A stretch of DNA of 64,000 nt from Candidatus Chlorohelix allophototropha (GCF_030389965.1 NZ_CP128400.1:558001-622000); one strand, 5' to 3'; positions 40,792 to 52,942 are shown, counted from the first letter of the stretch. Notes: generated from the sequence alone by a model not told the origin. A program made the numbers and translations.

Positions 40792-42555
40792 ATGTCAGAT
40801 CAGTTAAAATTAGGCTCTACCATATTAAATAAGTATCTTATCGACTCCATCATTGGTACTGGAGGATTTGGTGCAGTCTATAAGGCTTATGACCTAAAAC
40901 TCAAACGTTGGGCTGCTATAAAAACTCTACTCTATACGCAGAGTAGGCTGGATAATCGTTATGGAGTCGGGGCATTTGAAGAATTCCTGAGTCGTTTCCA
41001 ACGAGAAGCAACCGTCAGTAGCTACTTTACTCAAAATCCCAATATTATCACGGTTTATGGTCTGGAAGAAGACGAAGATGGGGATTATTACCTAATCCTT
41101 GAGTTTGTCGAGGGTGGTTCCCTAACCGATTATATCCGTAATAATAAAAAATTAACTATCGAAGAAACCTGCGCAGTTACACTCGATCTTTCTAGGGCGT
41201 TAGTTGATATTCACAATCATCCTGCCGATATTGTACACCGTGATTTAAAGCCCAGTAATATCCTTCTACGAAAAAATGGGCAGGCGCTTATAGCAGATTT
41301 TGGAATCGCGCAGGTCGGTCACGAAAGCCAACGCACTACGATTGGCGCACGACATCCGGGTTCATTACCCTATATGTCGCCCGAACAGGCTAAGGAATAT
41401 AGCTATCTTTCGCCAACCTCTGATCTTTATTCTCTAGGCTTGATTATTTATGAAATGCTGACCGGTATGCTGTATGCCAAATACAAACGCATGCCCCCAA
41501 GTTCGGTTAATCCTGAAGTTCCAGCATGGTTGGATGACTTAGTAACCCGCCTACTTAGTATTCTGCCAGAAGAGCGCTTGCAGAAAGCCGAAGAAATAAG
41601 CCACCTATTGCTGGAAAATATACCTGAATTAGAAAAATTCAGAATAATACCGCATAGTTCTGCGCCAGTAACCCCTCCGATAGAAGCAATACGGACTACC
41701 CCACTAGAAGGGGCAGTAAACAATGAACTTCCTACAATTGATATATCTGATAAAAAACTACCTGAAACTCTGACTGAGACAATTGCTTTATCAAAACAGC
41801 CTACCGCTTTACCGACTACCGACAAACGCAGACCAAACTTTATATGGGTAGGCGCAATTACAGCAGTTATTCTATTTCTAGGAATAGTCGGCGTTTTATT
41901 GGCGGGTAATGGTCAAAATAACAACAATTTAACTGCAACTATTGCGGCAGCAGTAGAATCAACTTCAAAAACCACTTCAACTGTTACGGATAATACAACT
42001 TTATCCATTTCAAATATTAATACTGTAGCCACAATGCCCTTGACCGATTCCGTTACAGCGACTGAAATCCCTAGCACACCCACTCCTGGACCTTCATTGA
42101 TTATATTTGGGGTTGGCACAACTCAACGAGGTGATGTTGAAACAGTCCAACCTGCCGATGCTACCGATACTTTTACGCTTGGAAGTGAAGCCTTTGGCTA
42201 TATAAATTTCGATGGCGGCAGACCGGATTTGGATAAAGTGGAACTGTCCATAATTTCGGATTCGGTTACACGAACTCCCATTACTATAACAATTACCAAA
42301 AAATCTGGATTCCAGATTTTGTCGCTTGGAAAATTGGAACTCGGTTCTTATCGAATCGAATTGCGCTACAATGGGCAGTTATTACCAAATCAACCTCAGT
42401 TTAAAGTGGTAGCGCCACCCACTACTGTAGCAATCCCAACTCAGCGCCCTGTAAACCAGCAACCGCTTCAAACTACTACAGCACCTACACCCCGTACAAC
42501 TGCGCCTATACCTGCGCCAACTACTAAAACTGTCTGCCCACCGGGGCAATGTTAA
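40792..42555 (+). CDS. Membrane Ser/Thr protein kinase with extracytoplasmic C-terminal domain
   Basis: A 587-aa Hanks-type kinase. Its N-terminal cytoplasmic catalytic domain (about 14-275) has GTGGFG (22-27), Lys44, IVHRDLKPSN with Asp151, and DFG at 169-171, so it is an RD kinase and should be active. A linker of about 70 residues leads to a single transmembrane helix (about 347-368). Outside are a Thr/Ser-rich stretch, a beta-rich region of about 100 residues, and a Pro/Thr-rich tail ending in CPPGQC. There are no PASTA repeats. No clear ribosome-binding site precedes the ATG. It probably senses an envelope signal; the downstream secreted propeller genes may belong to its regulon (inference). 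Confidence 0.9.
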   Translation: MSDQLKLGSTILNKYLIDSIIGTGGFGAVYKAYDLKLKRWAAIKTLLYTQSRLDNRYGVGAFEEFLSRFQREATVSSYFTQNPNIITVYGLEEDEDGDYYLILEFVEGGSLTDYIRNNKKLTIEETCAVTLDLSRALVDIHNHPADIVHRDLKPSNILLRKNGQALIADFGIAQVGHESQRTTIGARHPGSLPYMSPEQAKEYSYLSPTSDLYSLGLIIYEMLTGMLYAKYKRMPPSSVNPEVPAWLDDLVTRLLSILPEERLQKAEEISHLLLENIPELEKFRIIPHSSAPVTPPIEAIRTTPLEGAVNNELPTIDISDKKLPETLTETIALSKQPTALPTTDKRRPNFIWVGAITAVILFLGIVGVLLAGNGQNNNNLTATIAAAVESTSKTTSTVTDNTTLSISNINTVATMPLTDSVTATEIPSTPTPGPSLIIFGVGTTQRGDVETVQPADATDTFTLGSEAFGYINFDGGRPDLDKVELSIISDSVTRTPITITITKKSGFQILSLGKLELGSYRIELRYNGQLLPNQPQFKVVAPPTTVAIPTQRPVNQQPLQTTTAPTPRTTAPIPAPTTKTVCPPGQC

Positions 42556-42728
42556 CCCACCAACTCACTTTCTATTATTTAGTAAACACATTGTGAAATT
42601 CTGAATTTGTAAGGCGTATTTATGCAATTTTCCAATGCATTATTATTTTTAAATTAGTATAATTCTATCTGTCATTCTGCTTTAACAATTCTCAATAACT
42701 CCCCATCAATTTTGGAAGGGTAATGTAC

Positions 42729-45149
42729 ATGCGAAAACCTGCAAATATCTTAATAATACTTGGGATTTTATTCTCCATTTTTACTTCTATTGGAACGGCG
42801 AATGCTACCGAGGATAGCCGTTATTTTTCGCAAACCGATAAAACCGTAAGCGGGAAATTTCTTGAGTATTGGGACAAAAACGGCGGGTTACCCGTCTTTG
42901 GCTATCCAATTACCGAAGCTCAAATGGAAGTGAACCCGGAAGATGGGCAGGTTTATCTGACACAATGGTTTGAACGCCATCGCTTTGAATTACATCCAGA
43001 GAAAGCGGGTACACCCTTTGAAATTTTGACGGGATTACTTGGTAAGGATTTAAAGCGGGAAGGACTTTCCATTGACCCCGATTTTTTACCGGCGGCTGTA
43101 TTGTATAACACTGCACAGCCTAAAGAGCAGCAATGGTATTTTGACCAGACCAAACACAATCTCCGCTTTCGTTTTCTCGAATATTGGATGGCTAACGGTG
43201 GTTTAGAGCGCTTTGGCTATCCCATTAGTGAGGAATATAAAGAGGTTGACCCTGAGACCGGGAACGTATATATCGTGCAATGGTTCGAGCGGGCGCGTTT
43301 TGAATATCACCCTGAAAATCAGCGACCTTACGATGTTTTGCTTGGTTTGTTGGGAAAACAGATAAAAAATGCAAAACCGGGCGACCTAAATTACCTTTGG
43401 AAAATTGGCGCTGCTCAAAACGATTTGCGCGCGCCCGGACCTATTGCAGTCGGACCGGATGGTAGCGTTTATGTTGCGGATAGTGGTACACGTATTCAAA
43501 AATACGATGGGGATGGACACTTTTTAGCGCGTTGGGGTACGGCAGGTCTCTTGGATGGGCAATTCAATGGTATTAATTCCCTAGCTATAGATAGCAAAAA
43601 TAATGTATATGTGCTTGAAACCAACCGAGTGCAAAAATTTAGCAGTGATGGAACCTTCTTGCTTAAATTCGGTGCGGTAGGTAGCTATGACGCTGTATTG
43701 GATACGCCGACTCAAATGGTGATAGACCCACAAGGTAATATATTCATAATAGAACGATCAAAATACTTTATCAAGAAGTTTGACAGTAACGGTAAATATC
43801 TCAAGAAATTTGGCGGGCTAGGTACTCAGGATAGTAACTTCCAGCAGTACCCTGAAAGATTTAAGCTGGACTCTCAGGGGAATCTTTTTGTGCAGGCGGG
43901 AGACTCGCTTCAAAAGTTTGATAAGGAGGGGAATGCTCTGCAAAAATGGCAAGGTACGGCTTTTGAGTTGTCTTTTCCAACTTATACAGATAAAGTCCCT
44001 TTTTCACGGCTTACGCTCCTACAAATTACCCCTGAAGGGTATTTTTCCTTATATTATGGGATTAATAATATGGTTTATGTGGTGGATTCCAATTTAACTA
44101 TCTTAAAAAAATGGACTCCATTGGGTGGTATCAGTAACAGTGCGACTGATGGTGTAGGAAATCTATATCTTTCAGGTGAAATGGTTTATAAGTATGACAG
44201 CAGCGGGAATTTCATTCTCAAATGGGGCGCTCAAAATTCTCAATCAAGTCTAATAAATAATTGGTATAACATCAGCGCGGATTATACCGGGAATTTGTAC
44301 TATCCTGATAATTCCAGCATTGTTTGGTTGGACGAAAACTTAAGAGAAACCCAGCGAGTTGATTTTGCAAGCCTCACGAGTGGGCAGTTCAACCAGTCAA
44401 TTGGTAGGTTTAGTTTTGATAATAACGGGAACATTTATGTGCTACTGGGTAATACAGAGTCAACAAAATACTTGCAAGTTTTTGATAGCGCAGGACATTC
44501 CCTCAACAAATGGACTTTGGGTAGTTGTTGCGGTTGGGAGGATGGCAAGATAGACCAAATCTATGATTTCGAAGTGGGCGGCAACGGCAATTTCTATTTG
44601 ATAGATTACTACAATTATGATGCTAACCACAATTACAGCTCCACTATTAACCTACTTCGCGTTCAAGCCTTTGATAACCGTGGAAATTTCATGGCAAAAT
44701 GGCTAGTACCTTTTTCATATATCGGGTTAAATCTGACTACTGACCCGCAAGGGAATCTGTACATCCTTTCACACTCTGATGCAGATAAAGGTACTGATAG
44801 AGGTACTATCACCAAATATAATGGCAATGGCAATGTGCTGGGCAAATGGGATTTGGCAGCCGCAATACATGCGCCTTCTACCGCTTCACCAAGTTTTTCA
44901 TTAGTAAGTGACCACAAAAATTCTCTGTATTTGACTGCCAGAAGTTATGACCAGAGTTCTGGTATCGTAGAGGGAATAATAAAATTATCTTTTGACGGGC
45001 AATTGCAGGCTTTCTGGCAAGTCAATGATCCGAAGAATACCGACCAAGGTGACATTTTCGGGGTTCCCTATGGCAATATTGTTGCCACCTCTAACGGCGC
45101 TATTTTTGTTAAAACATATACGGCAATTCAAAAGTTCAGAATACGTTAA
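42729..45149 (+). CDS. Secreted NHL-repeat beta-propeller protein with two FGYP/QWFER modules
   Basis: An exported protein of about 806 aa. The signal peptide (to about residue 27) ends in an ANA-type cleavage site. Two copies of a roughly 75-residue module follow, each with a GG-x-x-x-FGYPI turn, a QWFER-x-RFE-x-HPE strand and a GLLGK close; they recall LGFP-type repeats in spacing, but I cannot confirm homology. The rest (about 215-806) is NHL-like blades such as IAVGPDGSVYVADSG and IQKYDGDGHFLARWG, a probable extracellular propeller. I prefer the ATG at 42729, 8 nt after GGAAGGG, over that at 42723. It has a tandem paralogue 29 bp downstream. Confidence 0.85.
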   Translation: MRKPANILIILGILFSIFTSIGTANATEDSRYFSQTDKTVSGKFLEYWDKNGGLPVFGYPITEAQMEVNPEDGQVYLTQWFERHRFELHPEKAGTPFEILTGLLGKDLKREGLSIDPDFLPAAVLYNTAQPKEQQWYFDQTKHNLRFRFLEYWMANGGLERFGYPISEEYKEVDPETGNVYIVQWFERARFEYHPENQRPYDVLLGLLGKQIKNAKPGDLNYLWKIGAAQNDLRAPGPIAVGPDGSVYVADSGTRIQKYDGDGHFLARWGTAGLLDGQFNGINSLAIDSKNNVYVLETNRVQKFSSDGTFLLKFGAVGSYDAVLDTPTQMVIDPQGNIFIIERSKYFIKKFDSNGKYLKKFGGLGTQDSNFQQYPERFKLDSQGNLFVQAGDSLQKFDKEGNALQKWQGTAFELSFPTYTDKVPFSRLTLLQITPEGYFSLYYGINNMVYVVDSNLTILKKWTPLGGISNSATDGVGNLYLSGEMVYKYDSSGNFILKWGAQNSQSSLINNWYNISADYTGNLYYPDNSSIVWLDENLRETQRVDFASLTSGQFNQSIGRFSFDNNGNIYVLLGNTESTKYLQVFDSAGHSLNKWTLGSCCGWEDGKIDQIYDFEVGGNGNFYLIDYYNYDANHNYSSTINLLRVQAFDNRGNFMAKWLVPFSYIGLNLTTDPQGNLYILSHSDADKGTDRGTITKYNGNGNVLGKWDLAAAIHAPSTASPSFSLVSDHKNSLYLTARSYDQSSGIVEGIIKLSFDGQLQAFWQVNDPKNTDQGDIFGVPYGNIVATSNGAIFVKTYTAIQKFRIR

Positions 45150-45178
45150 CCAAACTATTAGCAGGCAGAGGAAAGTCA

Positions 45179-47608
45179 ATGAACCGCATTAAATTTGCAG
45201 GAGTGTTCTTTAGCGTACTACTGATGTTGGGTTTATTTGTGTCGGCTTTAACCCCCGCCTTGGCTGACGATAGCGAATATTTTGAGGCAACCGGAAAAAC
45301 TGTAAGCGGCAAGTTTCTGCAATATTGGCATTCAAACGGTGGGTTATCGGTTTTTGGCTATCCCATTACAGAAGCCCAAATGGAAGTGAATCCCGAAGAT
45401 GGACAGGTTTATCTGACGCAATGGTTTGAACGACATCGCTTCGAATTGCATCCAGAAAAAGCCGGCACTCCCTTTGAGATACTCACCGGGCTTTTGGGAA
45501 AAGACTTGCGGCGCGAGGCTTTAGAGGTTGACCCCGATTTTAAACGAGCCGATGTTCTATATAACGTGCTTCAGCCTAAAGAGCAGCAATGGTATTTTGA
45601 GCAAACCGGGCATAATCTGCGTTTCCGTTTTCTGGAATACTGGATGGCTAACGGCGGTCTGGAGCGTTTTGGATATCCCATCAGTGAGGAACATCGCGAG
45701 GTTGACCCTGAAACAGGTAAAAGCTACGTGATGCAGTGGTTTGAACGGGCGCGTTTTGAATACCACCCTGAAAACCAGCGTCCCTATGATGTTCTGCTCG
45801 GCTTGCTTGGCAAACAAATCAAGAATCCGGTTCAAAACAAGTTGGAATTTATGTGGAAGATCGGCGCATCTGCCAATAATTTTAGAAGGCCGGATGCGTT
45901 GGCAATTGATAAAAGCGACAATGTTTATGTGGTAGATATTACTGGCAAGCGGGTATTCAAATACGGCAGTAATGGACAGTTTCAAGCAAGGTGGTCGGTG
46001 GACGGTCCTTCAGCGCTGGCAATAGACAGTCGCGATAATTTATTCGTAGCTAGACGTTCGGCAGCGCAAATAGCCAAATATGACTCGAATGGTAGTTTAC
46101 TTTACCAAAAATATTTATATGCGATTAATAATAGTAACTATAGAAGTAATATCCAACTCGGTGTTATTGCAATAGATCCGTATGACAACCTGTTTGTTGC
46201 CGATCCCGATACTGCGCAGGTTCATAAGTTTGATGGAGAAGGTAATTTTCTTCTTACGATTGGTGGAGAAGGGGCTGGAGATGGGCAGTTCGGTTTTTCC
46301 AAATACGGCTATAATTTTATCAATGGTTTGGGTTGTGATGCTCAAGGAAATTTATATGTGCTTGACCCGGTTAACAGCAGAATTCAGATTTTCGATAATA
46401 ACGGGAATTTTCTAAGAAAAATCACTAAAGTTTCCGGTATCGATCTTGGAAGAGCAGACTCACTTGCGGTAGATGAACAAGGTCAGCTTTATCTAACTAC
46501 TTACATCGTCTTAAATTCTACCAATTTCAACTATTCCCTGTTGAAACTGGATAGCAACGGCACTGTGCTGTTAACGGTGCAATTGAATAATCAAAACAAC
46601 AACAGTTCGGTTATTACCGTTCGGAATGGGAATTTATATATAGGTAGTTACAAAACCAAATTGGTATCAAAATATTCTACCGATGGGCAACTACTACTTT
46701 CATGGGGAAACAGCACAGACCCCAATACCCGTTTTGATTTTATTAATCATTTATGGCTTGACCGTCAGGACAATTTATACATTATTGATAATCAAACTAT
46801 GCGGAAGTTCGACAATAAAGGTCATTTCTTGCAGGCGTGGAATCCTCCTAGTCAAACTTGGGCAGTTTATTTTGACGGTAATGACAAGTTCTATTATAGC
46901 GAGGAACTTCGAGATACCGATACCCAGCCATATGAACGAGTTACGGTACTTAATACTACGGGGGGTCAAATCTCTCAGTTCTCGATAAAAAACCAGCCTT
47001 GTAAAAGCTATTCTTATGGTGGGCAACGTTTCTCCGGTGTAGATCGTCAGGGAGATCTATATTTCCTTTATTCCTACGACCCGGGTTCGAGTTATCCGGG
47101 GCAGCAAAAGGATTGTATTCAGAAATTTGACTCAACCGGCAAGTTGCTGGCAGAGTGGGGCAGCTACGGCAGTGGTGATGGGCAATTCAAATTTAAAATT
47201 ATTAACCCTGATGGTACAGGTTCGGGTTATATACCGCAAATTGCTTTGGATGAACAGGGCAATTGCTATGTTACTGACTTGGGTAATTACCGAATCCAGA
47301 AATTTGATAGCACAGGTAAATTTCTGGCGCAATGGTCCTTATTCATACCACCGGATTATAAACGTGAAGATATGACTCCAAACAATTTGATCGTTGATAA
47401 TAAAAGTCAGGTGTATGTAGAAGTTGCAGGCTATTTACAAAAATATGACAGCAACGGTAACCTAATTATTAACATCAAAACAACAGATGATTATTCCATA
47501 GAATCGGCAGATGGAAGTTTTTTCTCTCGAAGTATAGCTATAGATACCGCCGGGCATTTGTTCGTAGGCGATTATAGTGAACGTGTTCAAAAGCTAGTTT
47601 TGAGGTAA
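45179..47608 (+). CDS. Secreted NHL-repeat beta-propeller protein, tandem paralogue
   Basis: An 809-aa exported paralogue of the preceding gene, with the same order: signal peptide (cleavage probably after ALA near 29), two FGYP/QWFER modules (about 35-210), then NHL blades. The modules are almost identical to those of the upstream protein, while the propeller is only patchily similar, with different blade sequences. AGAGGAAAG precedes the ATG, and the 29-bp gap implies co-transcription. The blades show repeated YDSNG/FDSTG and YVxD motifs. Likely role is surface binding or adhesion with variable specificity; no catalytic residues are seen. Confidence 0.85.
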   Translation: MNRIKFAGVFFSVLLMLGLFVSALTPALADDSEYFEATGKTVSGKFLQYWHSNGGLSVFGYPITEAQMEVNPEDGQVYLTQWFERHRFELHPEKAGTPFEILTGLLGKDLRREALEVDPDFKRADVLYNVLQPKEQQWYFEQTGHNLRFRFLEYWMANGGLERFGYPISEEHREVDPETGKSYVMQWFERARFEYHPENQRPYDVLLGLLGKQIKNPVQNKLEFMWKIGASANNFRRPDALAIDKSDNVYVVDITGKRVFKYGSNGQFQARWSVDGPSALAIDSRDNLFVARRSAAQIAKYDSNGSLLYQKYLYAINNSNYRSNIQLGVIAIDPYDNLFVADPDTAQVHKFDGEGNFLLTIGGEGAGDGQFGFSKYGYNFINGLGCDAQGNLYVLDPVNSRIQIFDNNGNFLRKITKVSGIDLGRADSLAVDEQGQLYLTTYIVLNSTNFNYSLLKLDSNGTVLLTVQLNNQNNNSSVITVRNGNLYIGSYKTKLVSKYSTDGQLLLSWGNSTDPNTRFDFINHLWLDRQDNLYIIDNQTMRKFDNKGHFLQAWNPPSQTWAVYFDGNDKFYYSEELRDTDTQPYERVTVLNTTGGQISQFSIKNQPCKSYSYGGQRFSGVDRQGDLYFLYSYDPGSSYPGQQKDCIQKFDSTGKLLAEWGSYGSGDGQFKFKIINPDGTGSGYIPQIALDEQGNCYVTDLGNYRIQKFDSTGKFLAQWSLFIPPDYKREDMTPNNLIVDNKSQVYVEVAGYLQKYDSNGNLIINIKTTDDYSIESADGSFFSRSIAIDTAGHLFVGDYSERVQKLVLR

Positions 47609-47654
47609 TAAAATCGGCAATATCTTCATCGTGATATAAAGTAGCGTACATGAA

Positions 47655-47682
47655 AAGCCCTACCTTGTAAAAGGCAGGGCTT
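47655..47682. terminator. Bidirectional terminator between convergent genes
   Basis: AAGCCCT-a-CCTT (47655-47666) pairs with AAGG-c-AGGGCTT (47671-47682) with one mismatch and a 4-nt loop. On the minus strand it is followed by TTTT. It lies between the convergent propeller and DUF4097-like genes. Confidence 0.75.
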
Positions 47683-47700
47683 GCGAGGAAAGCTGGAAAT

Positions 47701-48618
47701 CTATTTTATCGTTACGCTACCGTTACCGGCGCTAATTCGTAAGGTAGGTCCATCGGCGGTGGTTAGAACATGGCGTTTATCCTTGATTTCGAAGTTAACG
47801 CCGCTCAGTTGAAAATCTATATTGCCATTACCCGTAGTAGCATCAAATATTACGGCATTTGTTTTGTCCAAGTTCAATTGGATTGAACCGTTGCTGGTTT
47901 CTATCATTCCGGCTGAAGTCTGTACCAACGTACCGTTTATATCAACCTGACCGTTGGAGGTACTGACCCGTTCAAGGTTCAGGTTGCTGTTATTGGCTTC
48001 GATTCTGCCATTACTGGTAGAAGCTTTTAACGAAGCGGTTGAATTATTGATAGTTTGAGCGCCGTTACTGGAATGAAGCTCCAAAACTTTCGCTTTAACT
48101 TGCTCAATCCGAATTGTGCCATTGCTGGTTTTAAGATAATTTGTAGCTTCGCTGTTGTTAAAATTCCGCAGAGTGATGGCACCATTACTAGATGTCAGGT
48201 TGGCAGCCATCGTTTGAGGCAAACTTACGCTGATTTCAACTCTAGCGTTGCCGATAAACCAATTTTCAAAACCCTGCGCCTTACCCGCTTTAATAATAAT
48301 ATTATCACCCTGTTGCTCTGCGGTAAAAGTAAGACGATCTATCGCTGTAGCGTCTGTACCATTGACGATTTTAACGGCGTTTATTGTAACTACAGTAGTA
48401 CCGGGTACGCCGTTTACATCAATCTTGCCGTTATCGTTTTCAATTACTATTTGACCTTTCCCGTTTACTTCGAAGGTTTTATTAACATCTTGCCTTTGTT
48501 CAGGCCCAAGACCGCTAATTAAGCTACCAAAACTGCCGGGAGCGAGTGCAACAATTATTAGCGCGACACTTACCAACACTACTAGGGCAATACCTAATAA
48601 AATGCCTGCCTTACGCAT
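47701..48618 (-). CDS. DUF4097-like membrane-anchored beta-repeat protein
   Basis: A 305-aa protein with one N-terminal transmembrane segment (about 5-30) and an extracytoplasmic region made of about 20-residue beta-strand repeats. At least seven carry an S/T-N/G-N-G turn (SSNGAIT, TSNGTIR, TSNGRIE, TSNGQVD, TSNGSIQ, TGNGNID). This pattern matches the DUF4097 / LiaG-like putative adhesin group, whose solved or predicted members form a beta-helix. Exact function is not known. AAAGG lies about 10 nt before the ATG at 48618. A 2TM protein gene precedes it by 31 bp on the same strand, so the two form a small envelope unit. Confidence 0.8.
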   Translation of the reverse strand: MRKAGILLGIALVVLVSVALIIVALAPGSFGSLISGLGPEQRQDVNKTFEVNGKGQIVIENDNGKIDVNGVPGTTVVTINAVKIVNGTDATAIDRLTFTAEQQGDNIIIKAGKAQGFENWFIGNARVEISVSLPQTMAANLTSSNGAITLRNFNNSEATNYLKTSNGTIRIEQVKAKVLELHSSNGAQTINNSTASLKASTSNGRIEANNSNLNLERVSTSNGQVDINGTLVQTSAGMIETSNGSIQLNLDKTNAVIFDATTGNGNIDFQLSGVNFEIKDKRHVLTTADGPTLRISAGNGSVTIK

Positions 48619-48649
48619 CGTTTTAAACCTTTCAATTTTAGAAGTTTAT

Positions 48650-48997
48650 TTATTTCTGATCAGTAGGTGTTTGATAGGTCGGATAATTGGTTACACCCAT
48701 TTTGCGCATTTCTTCATCGATCATTCGGTTGGTGTTGTAAGTGCCATCACCGAAGATAAATACTGCCAAGAAATTGAAAACTAATCCGATACCCCAACCG
48801 GCTAAGGGCCAGATAAACCAAGGGTAGTAGAGTCCACTCGCGGCTAGGGCGGTCAAGAGATAAATCCCAATTAAAAGCCCATTTACTACCAAGTAAGAGG
48901 CGAGATGCCAGTAAAAACCGACTTTAGCTTTGACGCGGCGCTCAGCTTGGCGATAAGCTGTTTCATACTGTACTCGTGTAGGATCGTAATTGTACAT
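48650..48997 (-). CDS. 2TM-domain protein
   Basis: A 115-aa membrane protein with the 2TM-domain pattern: an amphipathic, basic N-terminal helix (AYRQAERRVKAKVGFYWHLA), two transmembrane helices (about 33-53 and 60-82), and WFIWPLAGWGIGL between them. The C-terminus is polar. In other bacteria this domain occurs alone or fused to LytTR or histidine-kinase domains; its biochemical role is unclear. AAGGAG lies 7 nt before the ATG. It is probably co-transcribed with the downstream DUF4097-like gene. Confidence 0.85.
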   Translation of the reverse strand: MYNYDPTRVQYETAYRQAERRVKAKVGFYWHLASYLVVNGLLIGIYLLTALAASGLYYPWFIWPLAGWGIGLVFNFLAVFIFGDGTYNTNRMIDEEMRKMGVTNYPTYQTPTDQK

Positions 48998-49224
48998 AAA
49001 ATTTCTCCTTTTGATTTCTGATTATTTTTATACTACTGCTCACATATTTATCTTATTAGAGATTGTAAGGTTTTACATCAGTCTTGAAGCTTGGGTTAAG
49101 TAGGGAAGAGGGGTGAACCGAATCTAGGTCTTTGGGATTACTTAAATGTAGGGTAAAGAATAAGACTGCCTACCAAAGAGTCAGTGAACGTTTATTGAGC
49201 GAGTTAAAACCAGAATAACAAAAA

Positions 49225-49253
49225 GCAAGAGTTGCATTGATTACAACTCTTGC
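49225..49253 (-). terminator. Rho-independent terminator of the two-repeat secreted protein gene
   Basis: GCAAGAGTTG (49225-49234) and CAACTCTTGC (49244-49253) form a perfect 10-bp stem. On the minus strand it is followed by TTTTT. It ends 44 bp beyond the stop at 49297. Confidence 0.88.
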
Positions 49254-49296
49254 CTTTGGGTTTAGCTCACAACATTGTGTAGCCAATTCCTAGTTA

Positions 49297-50169
49297 TTAG
49301 TCCGCGGTAGTAGCGAAACCAAATATCTGCGAAGTACCGGTCAGATTACCCATAGTGCTTAAACTCCAGTTACCAACTGAGGGTTTGTAAAGGATAACCA
49401 GTAGATAGGTATCAACTGCATTACCACTTGTATCATACTCGGTAATCAAGCGGGTATAGTTGCCGCCGAAAGTCTGAGCCAAGCCTTCAGGGTCGGTAGT
49501 TTGTACACGTACTTGGATGTTGCCATTGTCATCAGCCGTAATGTAACTGGCATCTAACGCTGCGTTCTTGGGATCAGTTGTCCACAAACTAACACGTTCG
49601 CCTGCGCCATAGCCACTACCTTTCATGGTAAAGATAGTACCAAGTGCGCCAGTGGCAGGTGTAGCGATAATGGTGCTGCTACTCTTTTCGCCACCAAGCA
49701 CTTGGAAATTCATAACTTGCTGTACACTGCTAAGTTCGCCGTGTCCGGTTACACTCCAAGTACCAACAGATGGTTTGAAGAGAATTAGTTGCAGGTAGGT
49801 ATCAACCACGACCCCGTTTACGTCAAAATCAGTAAATAAGCGGGTGTAGTTACCTCCTAAAGCTTGTGCTAAGCCGTCAGGGTCAGAAGTTTGTGCCTTT
49901 ATTAGAAAACTCCCAGTTTGATCTGCTAGAACATAACTAGCAGAAAGTGCAGCCCCAGAAGGGTCGGTAGTCCAGAGGTCTACCTTCTCGAAGGGTGTAA
50001 ACCCGCTCCCCTTCAGTGTAAAGACACTTCCTTCCAATCCAGTTGATGCATTACTGGCAGCATGCGCTGTAAAAGCACCTAGCGAATAAAAAATCATTCC
50101 TAGCATTAACAATACCGCCAGCCCCATTTGTAAGGTAGTACGCCTACGGGAAATTTGGCTTGAAAACAT
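49297..50169 (-). CDS. Secreted protein with two tandem Ig-like repeats, unknown function
   Basis: A 290-aa exported protein. The signal peptide (about 1-37) ends in AHA-A. It is followed by two homologous repeats of about 110 residues. Each has the order F-T-x-K-G-S-G, a LWTTDP strand, ASY-x-x-AD, a QT(S/T)DP-(D/E)-GLAQ turn, GGNYTRL, VDTYL and a KPSVG-x-WS strand. The beta-rich pattern suggests an Ig-like or IPT-like fold, but I recognise no named family. AGGAG precedes the ATG at 50169. It has its own strong terminator and is divergent from an OmpR-type regulator gene, so it is a single-gene unit and possibly regulated by it. Confidence 0.8.
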   Translation of the reverse strand: MFSSQISRRRTTLQMGLAVLLMLGMIFYSLGAFTAHAASNASTGLEGSVFTLKGSGFTPFEKVDLWTTDPSGAALSASYVLADQTGSFLIKAQTSDPDGLAQALGGNYTRLFTDFDVNGVVVDTYLQLILFKPSVGTWSVTGHGELSSVQQVMNFQVLGGEKSSSTIIATPATGALGTIFTMKGSGYGAGERVSLWTTDPKNAALDASYITADDNGNIQVRVQTTDPEGLAQTFGGNYTRLITEYDTSGNAVDTYLLVILYKPSVGNWSLSTMGNLTGTSQIFGFATTAD

Positions 50170-50540
50170 TAAATTGCTCCTTTCGTATATTCTTTAGTGT
50201 TCGTTACTGCTTGGCTATTGCCAAGATCAATATAACCCTGTAGTTTTAAGATTTCGGTCAGAATTTGCTAAGTAACCGACAAGATTTAATAAAAACTTTT
50301 TTAATATAATCGGGAGTATTTTTACTTTTATGTGGGGTTTTTGAGCCTACAGGGGAGTTAGAACCATCTAGTAAATATTAAATTTGCTCAGAAAATTTGA
50401 ATTGTCTTTGCATTTACTTAGTTTTTTCATATTATTTTTACCTTAAAATGATTTTGAGGCGCACACATTTCTGCAAAATCAATGTAAAAAGCACAAGCAC
50501 TTTGTAAAAAAGTAAAATAGTTTGGTAGGGTTAAAATGCT
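50170..50540. other. Divergent AT-rich promoter region
   Basis: 371 bp between the secreted-protein and OmpR-type genes; no gene seen. A TAATATAAT block near 50303-50311 could be a -10 for the plus strand, but no good -35 is present. Confidence 0.35.
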
Positions 50541-51353
50541 ATGGTCTTGAGATGGATTAATCTCGGTGTAAAGGCTGATATAGCAAAGCCGAGTGAGAGA
50601 ATATTTCAACCTGAAATTATTGAAAAGTCGCAGCAATTAAAGAAAATATTAATAATAGAAGATCAGGCTGATATTACCGATTTTATTACACCTTATTGTG
50701 AAAAGGAGGGCTATTACGTAGAAAGAGCAAATAGTGGTGAGCAAGGGCTTGAGATGTTTGAGTCGTTGCAACCCTCAATGATATTGCTCGACCTCGTTCT
50801 TCCGCGGCTTGGCGGCTTAGAGGTCTGTCGTCGAATTCGAAATGCCAGTGAAATACCCATAATAGTCATTTCGGCACGTCATGAGGAAGTAGATAAAATA
50901 CTGGCGCTAGAGACAGGGGCGGATGATTATCTTACCAAACCATTTAGTCCCCGTGAGTTGATGGCACGAATCCGGTTAATTATACGTCGTTATGAAAGAG
51001 GGGTAACCGAAAAATCATTAGAGCACGTTTCAGTTGATCATTTCTCCGAATCAAAAATACTAAAAATCGGTAAGCTTTCTATAAATCTTCAGAACCGGGA
51101 AGTGCTTTATCTACGCCAGCAAATAACAACCTTGACCAAAATGGAATTTGAATTGCTCGTACAATTGGCACGGTATCCGGGTAGAATCTATTCTTCTAAT
51201 GAATTGGCTGAGGCAATTTATGGGTTAGATCATGCGATAGAATCTAGAGTAATCTCAGTTCACATCTCAAATCTGCGCAACAAACTACCTAATCCTGAAT
51301 TGATTGTCACTTGTTATGGGCTTGGTTATAAACTAATACGCGAGTCTGATTGA
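50541..51353 (+). CDS. OmpR/PhoB-family response regulator (orphan)
   Basis: A 270-aa transcription regulator. The first 33 residues are an atypical extension. The receiver (about 34-150) has IIEDQAD acidic residues, acceptor Asp in ILLDLVLPRLGG, the switch Ser in VISARHE and Lys in YLTKPFS. The C-terminal winged helix (about 175-268) shows LTKMEFELLVQLARYPGR and the recognition-helix region AIESRVISVHISNLRNKL. No histidine kinase gene is next to it. It is followed after 212 bp by a polysaccharide deacetylase gene and is divergent from a secreted protein gene, both candidate targets. Confidence 0.9.
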   Translation: MVLRWINLGVKADIAKPSERIFQPEIIEKSQQLKKILIIEDQADITDFITPYCEKEGYYVERANSGEQGLEMFESLQPSMILLDLVLPRLGGLEVCRRIRNASEIPIIVISARHEEVDKILALETGADDYLTKPFSPRELMARIRLIIRRYERGVTEKSLEHVSVDHFSESKILKIGKLSINLQNREVLYLRQQITTLTKMEFELLVQLARYPGRIYSSNELAEAIYGLDHAIESRVISVHISNLRNKLPNPELIVTCYGLGYKLIRESD

Positions 51354-51565
51354 TTATTAAGAATCAGCATGCGTTTCTAAGCACCGGCAATGTTGCAATA
51401 CAAATATCCGGTGTTTTAACTTATGCTAAATTAAATAAATATGGTATAATGCCCTCGATTTGCGAACATCGCTGTGCGCATTATTTCATTGAGCAGAAAT
51501 ATGCGCTAAATTATTGTTTATCTACTAACGTTATACCAAACATTCTAGTGATACGGATTATATAA

Positions 51566-52942
51566 GTGAAGAGAAAGCCGAAAAATATTGTAGTTGGGGT
51601 CAGCCTTGCTATTATATTGCTTTTCTCTGCAACCCTATTACCTGTAACCGCCGCAAGCCCTGAAAACGGATTTTCCTACCTCGCAGAAGTTGCAGCAGCC
51701 GTTAATGTTCGAAACCCTCGTCAATTCCAATATTATAATCAAACGGGGCATAGTGTAAGCGGACCGCTATTGAGATATTACCGCAGTACCGGTGGAATTA
51801 CCCGTCATGGCTATCCTATTACTGAACTCCTTTTGCGCGATGGTCATTACGTCCAATATTTTGAGCGAAGTGTGCTAGAGTTTTACCCAGATTACAGCGG
51901 TACTCCCCAAGAAGTTGCCCCAGTATCTTTATTTGGAGCCGATAATATCGGTGATAAAGCTACGGTTCAAGCTTTTGAAAGCACAGCTGATCGCTGGTAT
52001 TTCCCAGAAACTTCCCATAGTGTGTCGGGAGAATTCCTGTCATTCTGGCGGAATAATGGAGAGCGTCAATCTCTTGGTCTGCCACTGAGCGAACCCTTCG
52101 AAGAAACTCAACCTGACGATTCTAAATTGCTGGTACAATATTTTGAGTATGCCAAGCTCGAATATCACGCCGACTCGGAAGGGATTCAAATTGCCCATTC
52201 CGGGTTAAAGAGAGCAGAGTCTGAGCTTGACTCACAGCTTTTTGCTACTGCTCCTTTGGCACGTCTGACTGAACAGCGTCAGGTAAGAATACCCTCGCTG
52301 ATGTTCCATTATGTTAGAACGGTAGATCGAAAGAAAGATTTGCTTGGGTATCGCCTTTCGGTAACTCCCGAAACTTTTGGTAAATATCTGGACTGGCTCA
52401 AGGAGAATGGCTACCATACTGTAACGCTCGCGCAAGTTATGGATGCGCTTAAATATGGAGTGCAACTGCCTGAAAAAGCGATTAACCTACGTTTCGATGA
52501 CGGACATGCTGATATGTGGACTGCCTACCTCGCTTTAAAAGAGCGCGGCATGACTGCTACCTTTTATGTAATCACCCAACGGCTTGAGTTGTTGCCGGAA
52601 CAATGGCGACAAATTGACCAAGATGGTTTTGAGGTTGCACCGCATACCCGTACTCACCCAGATTTGCGGACAGTGCGCGATCTAAACGCGGAAATAAGCG
52701 GTAGCAAACAAGACCTCGAAGAGATGTTGGGGCATCCAACCCGCACTTTTGCTTACCCCTATGGCAAATACAGCGATGCTATTATTAAAGCCACTACCGA
52801 TAGCGGGATTGAAATGGCGGTTTCCACCGATGGCGGCTATAACTTCCTCTTGAATAATATGTACAAGCAACCCACGATTAGCGTAACCGGAGACGATACT
52901 ATGCAGGACTTTATCAATAAAGTAAAAGCCGGAACCCGTTGA
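51566..52942 (+). CDS. Secreted polysaccharide deacetylase (CE4/NodB) with two FGYP-type modules
   Basis: A 458-aa exported enzyme. The signal peptide is about 1-29. Two divergent copies of the module seen in the propeller proteins follow: GHSVSG...GGITRHGYPITE...VQYFER and SHSVSGEFLSFWRNNG...LGLPLSE...VQYFEYAKLEYH. A NodB-type domain (about 235-455) has LRFDDGH (first Asp pair), HTRTHPDL (metal His pair) and YPYGKYS. The canonical TFDDG Thr is Arg here. Expected activity is N-deacetylation of peptidoglycan or another amino-sugar polymer. GTG at 51566 is used as start; no good Shine-Dalgarno is visible. The modules probably hold the enzyme at the cell wall (inference). Confidence 0.86.
   Translation: MKRKPKNIVVGVSLAIILLFSATLLPVTAASPENGFSYLAEVAAAVNVRNPRQFQYYNQTGHSVSGPLLRYYRSTGGITRHGYPITELLLRDGHYVQYFERSVLEFYPDYSGTPQEVAPVSLFGADNIGDKATVQAFESTADRWYFPETSHSVSGEFLSFWRNNGERQSLGLPLSEPFEETQPDDSKLLVQYFEYAKLEYHADSEGIQIAHSGLKRAESELDSQLFATAPLARLTEQRQVRIPSLMFHYVRTVDRKKDLLGYRLSVTPETFGKYLDWLKENGYHTVTLAQVMDALKYGVQLPEKAINLRFDDGHADMWTAYLALKERGMTATFYVITQRLELLPEQWRQIDQDGFEVAPHTRTHPDLRTVRDLNAEISGSKQDLEEMLGHPTRTFAYPYGKYSDAIIKATTDSGIEMAVSTDGGYNFLLNNMYKQPTISVTGDDTMQDFINKVKAGTR

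Follow-up and report, generated by a model that had tools for sequence, protein, structure and literature searches.

Three exported proteins of Candidatus Chlorohelix allophototropha share a repeated unit, and the question raised by this locus is whether the unit is a protein domain in its own right, to what it is related, and what it does for the proteins that carry it. The window, meaning the whole stretch of 64,000 nucleotides analysed here, corresponds to C2:558001-622000 in a genome of five contigs, the three largest of which measure 2.96 Mb, 2.45 Mb, and 375 kb; the closed genome of strain L227-S17 has been published (PMC10972752). Within the window, three plus-strand ORFs (42723-45149, 45179-47608, and 51566-52942) contain six copies of the unit, all in frame. 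The first ORF (808 aa), for which an ATG start is possible at 42723 or 42729, encodes a signal peptide at approximately residues 1-29 (42723-42809, placed by eye on a hydrophobic stretch with a KD value of 2.75 followed by IGTANA), module copy 1 at residues 34-110 (42822-43052, 119.7 bits), copy 2 at residues 139-214 (43137-43364, 124.0 bits), and an NHL-repeat-like beta-propeller passenger (43395-45146) that matches Pfam NHL at 6e-9. The second ORF (809 aa) also consists of a signal peptide, a module pair, and an NHL-type beta-propeller (3.6e-15), with its copies at residues 34-110 (45278-45508, 119.9 bits) and 139-214 (45593-45820, 124.0 bits). The third (458 aa, GTG start) carries, behind its signal peptide, copy 1 at residues 56-124 (51731-51937, 71.2 bits), a degenerate copy 2 at residues 145-208 (51998-52189, 80.0 bits), and a NodB-type polysaccharide deacetylase domain (52463-52816; PF01522, 6.9e-25). 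The FDDG, HTRTH, and AYPYG motifs of this deacetylase are intact by eye, and NCBIfam places it as PgaB-like with a score below the cut-off. Directly upstream of both propeller genes lies a Ser/Thr protein kinase with a transmembrane segment and an extracellular tail (40792-42555), and a response regulator gene (50541-51353) lies directly upstream of the deacetylase gene on the same strand. Scans for Rfam families, promoters, and terminators added nothing.

The six copies align with one another by BLASTP within and between proteins at 35-90% identity (E 1e-9 to 1e-59), the weakest E-value (1e-9) being that between the two deacetylase copies, and a profile built from the six matched no further place in the six-frame translation of the window. 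The recurrence is thus far beyond chance, and the observation of the earlier note that each of the three proteins carries the unit twice holds. Its outline of 70-75 residues needs adjustment, as the unit is real but spans approximately 76 residues, with a start-to-start spacing of approximately 88-108 (median 101). The consensus of 28 diverse copies reads YFxETGHxLSGxFLxYWxxxGGLxxFGYPITExFxE...VQYFERxRxEYHPxxxGTxxEVxLGLLG, and in a profile of 86 copies positions 26-29 are occupied by F (0.56), G (1.00), Y (0.71), and P (0.97). Aromatic residues make up approximately 17% of each copy. Among the signatures first described, the (T/S)VSG-type opening fails for the second copies of the propellers, which open with HNLRFRF, and the FGYP and Q(W/Y)FER motifs apply except in deacetylase copy 2, which has LGLP and QYFEY instead. 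When the three window proteins are searched against Pfam and NCBIfam, only the passengers are named (NHL propellers and the NodB-type deacetylase) and the module regions are left uncovered. The unit is a genuine protein domain, uncatalogued in Pfam and NCBIfam.

A profile search of whole genomes, which the earlier note had recommended, reveals how common the module is. In the Chlorohelix genome, a single query pair matches 58 places, iterating a profile yields 86 copies spread over 46 ORFs, and a family profile finds at least 116 places (150 of 197 candidates scored). Together with a diverged YkuD protein at C2:405784, the 46 ORFs of the iterated profile bring the genome to at least 47 module ORFs. 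Exactly two copies are present in 40 of the 46 ORFs, none having more, and in 58 of 66 survey ORFs. Four genomes of the same family as Chlorohelix hold 100-146 module places each by the family profile, and most other families of the class hold 23-121 per genome. In a genome-by-genome sampling confined to the phylum Chloroflexota, the module occurs in 160 of 301 genomes. It is almost absent from one family of the class sample (f7: G158, G295, G307, G309, G310, and G313), of which G158 and G295, the two members tested, both have murG. Among the contigs searched with the window pair, matches fall mostly in Chloroflexota; a contig labelled Gracilibacteria and two bacterial MAGs without placement also match, and the closest named match is a Ca. 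Chloroheliaceae MAG labelled L227-5C. In two related IMG/VR contigs (L151:3596-4645 and L152:3596-4672), a module pair and an Ig-like tail occur together on a secreted protein that may be a surface protein carried by a phage; L152 also contains a tape-measure-like ORF.

The earlier note regarded a likeness to LGFP repeats as too weak to claim, and simple searches gave the same impression: PF08310 has zero matches in the whole genome at E<=0.001, and LGFP has none in the three window proteins at E<=1. The absence of any relation, which the whole-genome result alone would suggest, is overturned by profile-profile comparison. When the profile of 86 copies is aligned by hhalign to one of 11 true LGFP repeats, taken from two proteins of Chloroflexota genomes, the probability is 93.6% (P 2e-7) and the score 38.4; the highest-scoring of 200 column shuffles reaches 19.2 and the reversed control 15.9. 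In the PDB, the only hmmsearch matches of the module profile are two MytA/PS1 entries, with 6swz at E 0.0087 (the LGFP reference structures being Corynebacterium glutamicum MytA/PS1, 6swz and 6sx4), and the alignment to 6swz is in register, placing FGYP over LGFP and QyFER over QeFEKG; querying PDB sequences directly with one pair produced no match. The LGFP fold of MytA consists of a helix at the N-terminus and an antiparallel sheet of three or four strands; AlphaFold2 models the pair, from an alignment of 18 pairs, as a helix plus strands (pLDDT 91, pTM 0.84). Foldseek of this model against 350,542 chains ranks 6swz first (E 1.2e-3, prob 0.97), with the next match at E 0.88. The fold prediction proposed at the outset thus gave a mixed answer, as the best match of the pair is an LGFP structure but the TM-score to it is only 0.27 and the single-unit model has no significant match in the PDB, leaving structural support moderate and resting on the pair. 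Most copies are invisible to the PF08310 model, and two module ORFs of the genome pass the Pfam LGFP cut-off by hmmscan (30.0 and 25.8 bits; cut-off 22). From the profile comparison, the in-register match, the Foldseek result, and these two ORFs, it is concluded that the module is a distant homologue, a diverged sister group, of the LGFP repeat, and the 86-copy profile allows a claim that the earlier note withheld. Membership of PF08310 itself is rejected: the LG(F/Y)P motif is present with L replaced by F and the profile resembles that of true repeats, but the window copies stay below the gathering cut-off, and in place of direct tandem repeats of approximately 54 residues there are mostly two larger units, spaced as described above. 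A protein from a Chloroflexota genome (L065) has a Ser/Thr kinase domain with several true LGFP repeats behind it.

The LGFP domain of MytA interacts with peptidoglycan-arabinogalactan (PMC11299179). A wall anchor is expected on exported or membrane proteins, and the N-terminus includes a hydrophobic stretch in 39 of the 44 module ORFs that reach 250 aa, compared with 22 of 101 neighbouring ORFs (Fisher p 2e-14), which agrees with the description of the bearers as exported and runs counter to the outcome that would have spoken against a surface role, namely profile matches confined to cytoplasmic proteins. Four of the five exceptions have an explanation: a PP2C protein with one transmembrane segment and the module beyond it, a fragment of a module gene truncated by an insertion sequence, a protein whose signal peptide is visible yet under the threshold, and a prophage endolysin that has no signal peptide. 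The CAP protein in L046, which has no hydrophobic N-terminal stretch, is the only one without an explanation. The PP2C phosphatase at L045:3573-7079, which has a transmembrane segment and, at its C-terminus, a module pair predicted to lie outside, is a possible wall sensor. The placement of the module between signal peptide and main domain, taken from the window to be constant, is true of the three window proteins but not of the genome, where it lies near the N-terminus in 18 ORFs, usually directly behind the signal peptide, and 4-29 residues from the C-terminus in 23.

The domains to which the module is joined bear on its function. In the Chlorohelix genome, the partners include Amidase_2 (two), M23 (two), YkuD (two), GH18, GH5 (three), GH42, GH17, PGA_cap, polysaccharide deacetylase, subtilases, C39, CAP, and NHL and BNR-type propellers. 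In other Chloroflexota, the partners are Amidase_3, Amidase_2, SpoIID, VanW, YkuD, M23, GH18, and sortase. The 25 commonest of 180 families in 90 neighbouring non-module ORFs include no such wall enzyme, a view that leaves room for single occurrences further down the ranking. The NHL and BNR-type propellers, the largest partner groups, are uninformative about the wall. There is also an exchange with LysM. One of the four YkuD proteins in the genome carries three LysM repeats, and in two of its paralogues that slot is taken by the module; among the four M23 proteins, LysM is present in one and the module in two. The fusions to GH5, GH17, GH18, and GH42 and to the deacetylase, along with the aromatic content of each copy, could instead indicate a carbohydrate-binding module that brings catalytic domains to external polysaccharide substrates. 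This is very unlikely given that the passengers, which include propellers, subtilases, a C39-type peptidase, a transmembrane PP2C, and proteins with no recognised catalytic domain, have no common substrate.

The module is also reused as a cassette. Between the two window propellers, the pair is 87% identical and the remainder 33%, and in four neighbouring chromid genes the pairs are 90-96% identical while the remainders are unrelated. A four-gene cluster (L050:2833-9573; C3:4832-11575) consists of near-identical signal-plus-pair cassettes with C-terminal parts of no known family. Elsewhere, an IS3-type element, recognised by eye, interrupts a module-NHL-propeller gene between its module copies (L048:3160-4440; C3 ~352160-353440). 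A further module-propeller gene (L061:2044-3738; C2:204540-206237) has a single unit with a copy 1-like start and a copy 2-like end, as if a pair had collapsed by recombination between its copies.

The prophage endolysin, an Amidase_2 protein at C1:1862482, carries a single module unit at its C-terminus. Its catalytic part matches endolysin families. Ahead of its gene come one for a tail tape measure protein (PHROG E 6e-69) and others that encode a neck protein, a spanin-like protein, and a small membrane-spanning protein. The prophage-like region (L158:41-17777; C1 ~1845540-1863276) comprises tape measure, neck, and tail genes, the spanin-like protein, and the amidase endolysin. Viral proteins related to it in the catalytic domain (identity up to 60%) are without the module and end in a different C-terminus, and nothing was found when known phages were scanned with the module pair. 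Known sorting domains occupy one fixed end of the protein. The mostly terminal position of the module and its presence in exactly two copies in most proteins would also suit a secretion, sorting, or oligomerisation domain that binds no ligand, but this is the least probable of the explanations considered, as the module occurs at either terminus, is found alongside ordinary signal peptides, and is present on an endolysin that has none.

Occurrence across genomes points in the same direction as the endolysin. Among the 301 genomes, 157 have both module and murG, three have the module without murG, 32 have neither, and 109 have murG only (Fisher p 7e-9, calculated without phylogenetic correction); expressed per class, the module is found in 157 of 266 genomes with a match to the murG model (which picks up other glycosyltransferases as well, archaeal controls included) and in three of 35 without. 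The three exceptions are MAGs that are 88, 74, and 77% complete. The small genomes without murG are read here as reduced Dehalococcoides-like lineages, and since these account for many of the murG-less genomes, the co-occurrence is confounded by phylogeny. The 109 genomes with murG only, and the scarcity of the module in family f7 despite murG in its two tested members, indicate that the module is dispensable for having a wall. Chloroflexota envelopes are multilayered, of a composition yet to be settled, and without BAM or LPS genes (PMC13319060, PMC7332563), and many passengers are propellers and external glycosidases, both of which would fit a module that binds an outer envelope layer, such as a sheath polysaccharide or a surface protein layer, rather than peptidoglycan, and retains proteins at the surface that way. 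Such outer-layer binding is nevertheless unlikely, because the endolysin, the fusions to amidases, M23, YkuD, and SpoIID enzymes, and the near absence of the module where murG is absent all point to peptidoglycan or something attached to it.

Taken together, the peptidoglycan-active partners, the use of the LysM slot, the C-terminus of the endolysin, the cassette reuse, and the near absence without murG lend good, though indirect, support to the earlier suggestion of a cell-wall or glycan anchoring domain. The module is probably a wall-binding domain, a sister group of LGFP, that serves as a generic retention tag in Chloroflexota. In the proposed mechanism, a module protein would be exported by an ordinary signal peptide, or would reside in the membrane with the module outside. 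Its two units, for which the models predict a single compact fold, would then attach to some component of peptidoglycan or of a polysaccharide linked to peptidoglycan, and the bound pair would hold its passenger, whether a propeller, protease, deacetylase, amidase, transpeptidase, or glycosidase, at the wall. For the window, this would mean that two NHL propellers and a NodB-type deacetylase are kept at the cell surface. We regard the domain as such, its occurrence in pairs, its extracytoplasmic location, the distant homology to LGFP, the set of partners, the distribution, and the reuse of the cassette as demonstrated, and wall binding itself, the identity of the ligand, and the requirement for two units as parts of the proposal that we infer. 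A stronger version, to which we give slightly less than an even chance, is that the pair is the main non-covalent anchor of the Chloroflexia envelope and recognises a group-specific wall feature, with prophages of the group using this very domain to aim their endolysins.

Most families of the class have between 23 and 146 copies in each genome, and the module probably ranks with the commonest surface domains there. Since Pfam and NCBIfam have no model that sees it, dozens of proteins in each genome go without this annotation, and a search of the literature found no paper describing it. How the layers and surface proteins of the Chloroflexota envelope are held is not settled (PMC13319060, PMC7332563), and the module offers a direct handle on this problem. 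Once it is named and has a testable ligand, localisation tags, sacculus-binding assays, and predicted surface proteomes become possible.

Among known systems, the LGFP repeat is the closest. It shares with the module the order of elements, namely a helix, a G(F/Y)P turn with an acidic residue after it, and a strand with a QxFE motif, as well as profile similarity, the top fold match, extracytoplasmic use, and a role as accessory domain of wall enzymes. The LGFP unit has 54 residues, whereas the module has approximately 76 with a linker that brings the start-to-start distance to approximately 101; MytA has five LGFP repeats, compared with exactly two module units per protein, and the signatures FGYP and VQYFERxRFEYHPE set the module apart. 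LysM takes the place of the module in YkuD (L,D-transpeptidase) and M23 paralogues of the genome but has no visible sequence relation to the module, and it is found at 12 places compared with at least 116. With the cell-wall-binding domains of phage endolysins, the module shares a place at the C-terminus, which in the prophage lysis region is behind Amidase_2, though related viral endolysins have another C-terminal sequence there (CWB2-like in several, by eye only), and the prophage enzyme has one unit in contrast to the two of most module proteins. The SLH domain is a short repeated module for surface retention, located at the N- or C-terminus. The present module resembles it in being short, repeated, terminal, and apparently used for retention at the surface, without visible sequence relation, and no SLH domain was found in the Chlorohelix genome. 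If the pair is indeed the main anchor of Chloroflexia, it would be the local counterpart of SLH, LysM, and LPXTG anchoring.
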